Assembly (NCBI GenBank): GCA_021779375.1
Contig: JAJYAT010000004.1
Coordinates: forward strand, 1 to 64,000
Direction: 5' to 3'
DNA length: 64,000 bases
Origin: a bacterium
GTDB taxonomy: Bacteria; Patescibacteriota; Gracilibacteria; JAHISY01
Shown: positions 35,300-53,807 of the stretch, piece after piece
How positions within the stretch are numbered: position 1 is the stretch's first letter
Layout of the letters: each line of letters starts with the position of its first letter
Made by a program: the position numbers and the translations under genes
The notes under the pieces: model-generated
Seen by the model: the letters and a program-made list of their open reading frames with translations, nothing else
Databases searched by the model: none
Told to the model about the DNA's origin: nothing

Positions 35300-35346
35300 G
35301 CTCGGGTGGTGAAATTCCTGCCTGCCGGCAGGCAGGGGTATACACG
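35300..35346 (+). pseudogene. truncated tRNA-Leu 5' copy split by a 20-bp palindrome
   Basis: GCTCGGGTGGTGAAATT (35300-35316) and GGTATACACG (35337-35346) together reproduce the first 27 nt of the intact tRNA-Leu at 35615. Between them lies the perfect palindrome CCTGCCTGCCGGCAGGCAGG (35317-35336), inserted in what would be the D-loop. After ACACG the copy diverges, so no functional tRNA can form. Confidence 0.8.
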
Positions 35347-35362: not shown

Positions 35363-35602
35363 ATGTTTTACACATATGTGATAAAAAGTCGAGAAAGAAA
35401 CTATATTTATGTCGGTTTAACAGGTGATCTCTTGAAAAGGGTGGGCGAACACAATCGTGGGATATCTCGAACTACAAGAAGTTATAAGCCGTTTGATTTA
35501 GTCCACTTCGAAAAATTTTCAACAAGAAACGAGGCTCGCGAAAGAGAAAAATATTTAAAGTCGGGCTGTGGTAAGGACTGGATTAAGAGTAAACTAGCTT
35601 GA
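35363..35602 (+). CDS. small GIY-YIG nuclease-domain protein
   Basis: A 79-aa single-domain GIY-YIG protein of the YhbQ/UPF0213 type. It begins FYTYVIKSRERNYIYVGLTGDL (the GIY and YIG positions appear as TYV and IYV), followed by RVGEHNRG and the conserved REREKYLKSG. Such proteins are predicted DNA endonucleases, often of unknown target. The track's longer version includes LPAGRQG, encoded by the palindrome, but the ATG at 35363 after GTTAAAAT gives the domain start. The gene lies exactly between a tRNA-Leu fragment and the intact tRNA. Confidence 0.85.
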   Translation: MFYTYVIKSRERNYIYVGLTGDLLKRVGEHNRGISRTTRSYKPFDLVHFEKFSTRNEAREREKYLKSGCGKDWIKSKLA

Positions 35603-35614
35603 AATCTAGAATGT

Positions 35615-35699
35615 GCTCGGGTGGTGAAATTGGTATACACGTACGCTTGAGGTGCGTATGCCGCAAGGCGTGGAGGTTCAAGTCCTCTCCCGAGCACCA
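35615..35699 (+). tRNA. tRNA-Leu (GAG)
   Basis: Acceptor GCTCGGG pairs with CCCGAGC, followed by ACCA (CCA encoded). The anticodon stem-loop is TACGC-TTGAGGT-GCGTA with anticodon GAG, decoding CUC/CUU. The long variable arm TGCC-GCAA-GGCG is class II, as expected for leucine. The T arm is GGAGG-TTCAAGT-CCTCT. A TAGAAT lies just upstream. Confidence 0.95.
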
Positions 35700-53768: not shown

Positions 53769-53807
53769 CCTCCTTTCGCAAAGGAGGCCTGCCTGCCGGT
53801 AGGCAGG
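53769..53807. repeat. hairpin CCTCCTTT/AAAGGAGG plus a 20-bp near-palindrome
   Basis: CCTCCTTT-cgc-AAAGGAGG (53769-53787) is followed directly by CCTGCCTGCCGGTAGGCAGG (53788-53807), one base-pair mismatch from a perfect palindrome and nearly identical to the one at 35317. It lies 100 bp downstream of dnaA. Confidence 0.6.

Follow-up and report, generated by a model that had tools for sequence, protein, structure and literature searches.

The nearest described system to the units analysed here is the phage nuclease SegB, for which PMC13096335 cites Brok-Volchanskaya 2008; by analogy, the bacterial units are proposed to work similarly. Among described palindromes, the Rickettsia palindromic elements (RPEs), which are about 100-150 bp long and known from Rickettsiales, are found outside genes as well as within essential ones, where they keep the reading frame. 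SegB of phages T4 and T6 is a free-standing GIY-YIG homing endonuclease of tRNA regions that cuts inside tRNA genes, and its cutting drives the formation of tandem copies of tRNA and nuclease, as the tRNA 5' region recombines with the end of the nuclease gene (PMC13096335). REP elements with RAYT transposases are dispersed palindromes of 20-40 bp that are tagged and extragenic (PMC3733652). Repetitive hairpin-forming or double-hairpin elements and mitochondrial GC clusters are, in the parts of the sources that we cite, described as mobile, scattered between lineages and sometimes located in genes without a frameshift, and no mechanism for their mover is given there (PMC2800124, PMC4478555).

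The window (the whole stretch of DNA that was analysed, 64,000 nucleotides) carries a locus in which a ctpA-like gene is followed by a dead tRNA piece with a palindrome, a nuclease gene and an intact tRNA-Leu, in this order. The features of the window are:

35300..35316, + strand: dead 5' copy of tRNA-Leu(GAG), nt 1-17, identical to the first 17 nt of the intact tRNA-Leu that begins at 35615; letters GCTCGGGTGGTGAAATT
35317..35336, no strand: perfect 20-bp palindrome CCTGCCTGCCGGCAGGCAGG, interrupting the dead copy in its D-loop; adds a net 20 nt with no tRNA base missing
35337..35346, + strand: dead tRNA-Leu copy continued, nt 18-27; letters GGTATACACG
35363..35602, + strand: gene of a 79-aa GIY-YIG nuclease; ATG start at 35363; Pfam PF01541
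35615..35699, + strand: intact tRNA-Leu, anticodon GAG; ARAGORN; Rfam RF00005, 52 bits
53788..53807, no strand: second member of the palindrome family, CCTGCCTGCCGGTAGGCAGG, one mismatch, intergenic

The palindrome at 35317-35336 splits the tRNA-Leu between nt 17 and 18, and its placement is unambiguous, with no sliding possible. Its excision fuses GCTCGGGTGGTGAAATT and GGTATACACG into a sequence identical to the intact tRNA-Leu(GAG) at 35615-35699, and at this insertion neither a target-site duplication nor a loss of tRNA bases was found. In 100 shuffles of the window, no chance match to the palindrome with up to 3 mismatches occurred. The initial annotation had described a perfect 20-bp palindrome, inserted without target duplication, whose removal restores the tRNA and which offers a before/after comparison at one locus; this holds exactly, with the intact tRNA-Leu representing the empty site in cis, and the near-identical palindrome that it placed at 53788 is real. 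It had further proposed a search for a responsible transposase or nuclease, and a GIY-YIG gene indeed starts 27 bp downstream of the palindrome, with a putative action on the palindrome or the tRNA. Its reading of a clean insertion with precise empty sites was supported, but it had missed that the host of the palindrome is the dead half of a nuclease/tRNA unit. A GTG at 35306, in the frame of the nuclease, reads through the palindrome as ...LPAGRQG.... The copy at 53788-53807 directly follows the hairpin CCTCCTTTCGCAAAGGAGG (53769-53787) in an intergenic, repeat-like stretch.

Empty and filled versions of the site were found in relatives, as the initial annotation had advised to look for. The dead tRNA-Leu copy begins about 13 bp past the stop codon of the ctpA-like gene, which is the site of the intact tRNA-Leu in G003, another species of the same genus. 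There, the ctpA-like gene is directly followed by the intact tRNA-Leu(GAG), so that the site is empty in G003 and filled in G000. G004 breaks at the identical point, directly after GGAATT; its hairpin is another one, and it lacks the nuclease. In genus g98, the site is empty in G187, and G265 and G126 carry a palindrome between GGTAGA and CGCGC; in G265 the upstream flank is duplicated. Precise empty sites were also found outside tRNAs, as alignments of argC and ispG revealed precise 21-bp in-frame insertions of the palindrome, each absent from 4 relatives. In-frame palindromes in protein genes that are absent from the orthologues are a property of RPEs. The palindrome copy in the Mur ligase gene is common to G003.

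The window nuclease matched PF01541 with an E-value of 2.1e-17, and its closest solved structure was 1ywl, the UPF0213 protein EF2693. Among 62 tRNA-flanked homologues, Y5, Y16, G18, R26, H30, E62 and K66 were invariant, and since these include the catalytic residues, the GIY-YIG nucleases of these loci are, as judged from sequence, probably active. Two properties expected of a SegB-like homing endonuclease, a GIY-YIG domain with conserved catalytic residues and presence or absence at the same locus beside the presumed target, were both found. In some genomes of the class, in-frame TGA codons occur in the nuclease genes (L210, L211, L215, L217 and L218), consistent with recoded TGA (code 25) in these lineages.

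Nucleases were sampled regardless of palindromes from 288 genomes of the class, 113 of which had a match. In total 117 nuclease loci, chosen by similarity to the window protein and including 8 from the palindrome or own-genome sets, were analysed. At 63 of these loci, a partial copy of the neighbouring tRNA was present across the nuclease, either as a 5' piece upstream or as a 3' piece downstream. A near-perfect palindrome lay exactly at the break of tRNA homology in 51 of the 63 (81%), compared to 5.1% (sd 2.7) in shuffled segments, and several of the 12 misses show imperfect hairpins by eye (e.g. L217, L239, L261, L309). Two anatomies were observed: a dead tRNA piece followed by palindrome, nuclease and intact tRNA, and the mirror arrangement of tRNA, nuclease, palindrome and 3' tRNA piece. 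Breaks fell mainly in the D arm, then in the anticodon and T arms, arm assignment being approximate. The sequences at the breaks varied (CCTGCCT..AGGCAGG, TCCGCC..GGCGGA, TCCCGCC..GGCGGGA, GTCGCC..GGCGAC, TCCCGA..TCGGGA and others). The 20-bp CCTGCCT palindrome added a net 20 nt with no tRNA bases lost in all 14 breaks tested, for which both flanks were aligned. The other palindrome families usually replaced 3-22 nt of a tRNA arm, often by a hairpin of similar length, with a net length change of about -3 to +10.

When the window nuclease was compared to the palindrome loci by tblastn, 6 loci were matched besides that of the window. Five of them, from WWE3, two Bacteroidetes, an unclassified MAG and a viral contig, have the same anatomy as the window: in all six, a 5' tRNA fragment carries the palindrome at 22-64 bp ahead of the nuclease start, and a copy of the tRNA in question comes after the nuclease. 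Other phyla also carry the unit, at L046 (WWE3) as well as L039 and L083 (Bacteroidetes). In the own genome of the window, a partial copy within 400 bp accompanies 12 of the 46 tRNAs, compared to 1 of 30 and 1 of 21, both short and chance-like, in two genomes without a candidate nuclease (Fisher p 0.003). Three further arrangements were observed. At L332, a tRNA-Gly locus of the own genome, the intact tRNA-Gly is followed by a tandem array of three units, about 46 bp each, in which a hairpin (TCCCGC..GCGGGA) precedes the tRNA 3' end. On the viral contig L162 (about 229-420), a GIY-YIG gene is followed by a tRNA-Leu-like sequence that three palindromes interrupt, including a tandem pair. In the isolate Agriterribacter humi (L085), the palindrome splits the D-loop of an otherwise recognisable tRNA-Arg-like sequence near a contig end.

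A tree of 116 nuclease sequences, built from few columns and with many open forks, was used to compare state changes to 200 label shuffles. The tRNA isotype changed 21 times (shuffle mean 42.6, min 38), the side 9 times (20.7, min 16) and the palindrome family 16 times (27.8, min 23). Nuclease clades thus track tRNA isotype, orientation and palindrome family. The position of the break is also near-constant per clade (Leu 23-24, Phe 55-57, Ile 9/17, Gln 25-27/41-48); exceptions for Leu are the window and L202, with breaks at 16-17.

Listing of all copies in the own genome (1.07 Mb, 14 contigs), also proposed in the initial annotation, yielded 13 palindromes with up to 2 mismatches, whereas a reversed control pattern gave 0 copies in the whole genome at the same threshold. 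Six of the 13 lie inside partial tRNA copies, each neighbouring its intact gene (Phe, Leu-GAG, Tyr, Leu-TAA, Pro, Arg). Another three occupy coding genes without shifting the frame (L004, L009 and L013, around 1501-1520), which were named argC, Mur ligase and ispG from their translated sequence, and encode LPAGRQV or LPTDRQG. The matches listed for this 20-mer come from Patescibacteria, Bacteroidetes, Omnitrophota, Nitrospirae, Elusimicrobia, WOR-3 and others, and it was also found in 42 stretches of viral contigs. The hairpin in the element is of the type that is scattered through the rest of its genome. Genomes with a CCTGCC hairpin in the element (n=13) hold 2-28 further copies (median 7) and other genomes (n=43) a median of 0, a difference with a p-value of 3e-6; as these genomes are related, the p-values given here overstate independence. 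In genus g48, two genomes with a CCTGCC hairpin hold 29 and 19 copies and one with another hairpin holds 0. G001 holds 9 copies without a close nuclease match.

In the window, a general excess of palindromes was not found for arms of 7-8 bp; palindromes with arms of at least 9 bp numbered 6, compared to about 1.8 expected. In the flanks of 142 palindrome copies, a stem of at least 6 bp around the insertion point was present in 12.7%, compared to 3.8% for random points and 7.5% for points close by. Targeting of hairpin loops as a general rule was rejected, as this enrichment is only modest. Around the 142 copies, T is rare before and A rare after the palindrome (9/142 each), a possible target preference, and A at -3 and T at +3 are favoured.

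As a tentative best explanation, held at slightly less than even probability, we propose a GIY-YIG element that, like SegB, targets tRNA genes, with a hairpin from the genome's mobile palindrome pool marking the sacrificed tRNA copy. Observed are the recurrent anatomy in the class and in other phyla, the link of nuclease clades with isotype and side, presence or absence at orthologous tRNA loci, the invariant catalytic residues and the match of the hairpin with the palindrome pool; the target of the nuclease, the order of events and the mechanism of palindrome mobility are inferred. The nuclease would cut the tRNA gene at or near the position of the palindrome, and repair or tandem duplication would bring in the nuclease along with a complete tRNA. 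Since a complete tRNA would be delivered along with the nuclease, the host could survive. The other tRNA copy would keep the broken site, at which a palindrome from the genome pool may be captured or inserted, and the hairpin would keep this copy dead and probably uncuttable. The simple logic that an insertion destroys the homing site fails to explain the survival of the intact tRNA, which is uninterrupted. It counts against the SegB-like explanation that most palindrome copies are far from tRNAs and that some genomes, such as G001, hold many palindromes but no close match to the nuclease; as other families replace parts of a tRNA arm instead of inserting cleanly, more than one process may act.

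That the palindrome is a free mobile element, RPE-like, which lands anywhere harmless, with dead tRNA copies as neutral sites and the nuclease irrelevant, would agree with the intergenic occurrence of the same 20-mer in many phyla, its in-frame copies in argC, ispG and the Mur ligase gene, and the palindrome load of a genome predicting the hairpin type in the element. However, a palindrome at the break in 81% of nuclease-linked dead copies is a density far above that of the rest of the genome, and its position is nearly fixed within nuclease clades, which leaves this alternative unlikely, though a serious one. Since structure-specific nucleases such as SLX1 belong to the GIY-YIG superfamily, the hairpin might instead be a working part carried with the nuclease, either insulating the dead copy from recombination or re-cutting or being the structure that the nuclease recognises. 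The palindrome family following the nuclease clade (16 compared to 27.8 changes), hairpins of one clade that differ and yet stay palindromic (e.g. Gln: TCCCGCC..GGCGGGA and CCCCGCC..GGCGGGG), several dead copies with an arm exchanged for a hairpin of similar length, and the different hairpins of G000 and G004 at the same break all speak for it. Yet most palindromes of a genome lie far from any nuclease, and the dead copies of the Ile clade retain homology over about 60 nt without interruption, so that recombination is not blocked there. Mismatches on the tRNA strand are mostly A-C and not G-U, which gives no sign of selection as an RNA hairpin, an idea that was therefore rejected. We regard a working hairpin as rather improbable.

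Transposition of the REP/RAYT type by a Y1 (HUH) transposase would account for short dispersed palindromes, and Y1_Tnp genes are present in the genome. But G003 and G031 hold 8-9 copies with no Y1 match, many Y1-positive genomes hold none, and 0 copies lie within 1.5 kb of the own Y1 genes, near which only a single match to a CCTGCCT-type half or other hairpin was detected, at the edge of L193. With no GTAG-type tag and with insertions inside genes as well, this route is very unlikely; the RAYT/Y1 transposase was rejected as the mover, since Y1_Tnp does not follow palindrome load and the palindromes do not flank Y1 genes. A partial and an intact tRNA flanking foreign DNA is also the classic picture after integration of an island (PMC9897764), and an attachment-site scar left in a tRNA gene by an element with a tyrosine integrase was considered, as was an artefact of assembly. 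The unit, however, spans about 0.3 kb and holds no gene but that of the GIY-YIG nuclease; it recurs at more than 60 loci in assemblies made independently, single-contig genomes among them, and an integrase does not produce direct repeats with a palindrome interrupting them. Between the partial and the intact tRNA of the window no integrase was found, the GIY-YIG gene being alone there, and we give scar or artefact hardly any weight.

A bolder version, which we consider doubtful, joins nucleases and palindromes into one two-part mobile system. Here, minimal GIY-YIG nucleases specific for tRNAs would open the hairpin arms of tRNA genes, and now and then other sites, and the opened sites would receive short palindromic DNA without target duplication. 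If so, the 20-bp palindromes would be non-autonomous elements moved or captured via a homing nuclease and not a transposase, a mode of transposition of which we know no description. A search of the open-access literature (subscription papers being outside its scope) returned no prior description of the palindrome sequence, of LPAGRQ or of an association of GIY-YIG and tRNA in Patescibacteria; this does not prove novelty.

If the SegB-like explanation is right, many of the small GIY-YIG genes that are unexplained in ultra-small bacteria would be elements that invade tRNA genes, provide a functional tRNA and mark the copy they kill with a hairpin. It would also provide a concrete handle on the spread of tiny palindromes without a known mover in Rickettsia, mitochondria and these bacteria, as every dead tRNA copy offers a comparison of before and after against its own intact control, and the gene of the presumed enzyme lies within a few dozen bases of it.

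Compared to known systems, the palindrome shares with REP elements that it is short and dispersed, but it is untagged and also intragenic, and no co-occurring Y1 (RAYT) transposase flanked by palindromes was found. Like the mitochondrial hairpin elements it is mobile, scattered between lineages and sometimes located in genes without a frameshift; those reside in organelles, and the parts of the sources cited describe no systematic nuclease-tRNA unit (PMC2800124, PMC4478555). The palindromes resemble RPEs in that they are short and lie both in frame in genes and outside genes, and differ from the general description of RPEs by a perfect palindrome of 20 bp, the same sequence in many phyla and the link to dead tRNAs. 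As for SegB, a GIY-YIG nuclease adjoins tRNA genes, with tRNA cleavage predicted here. Unlike SegB, these units reside in bacterial chromosomes, encode a minimal nuclease of 75-100 aa whose clades are tied to the tRNA isotype, and contain a dead partial tRNA copy with a palindrome in that copy.
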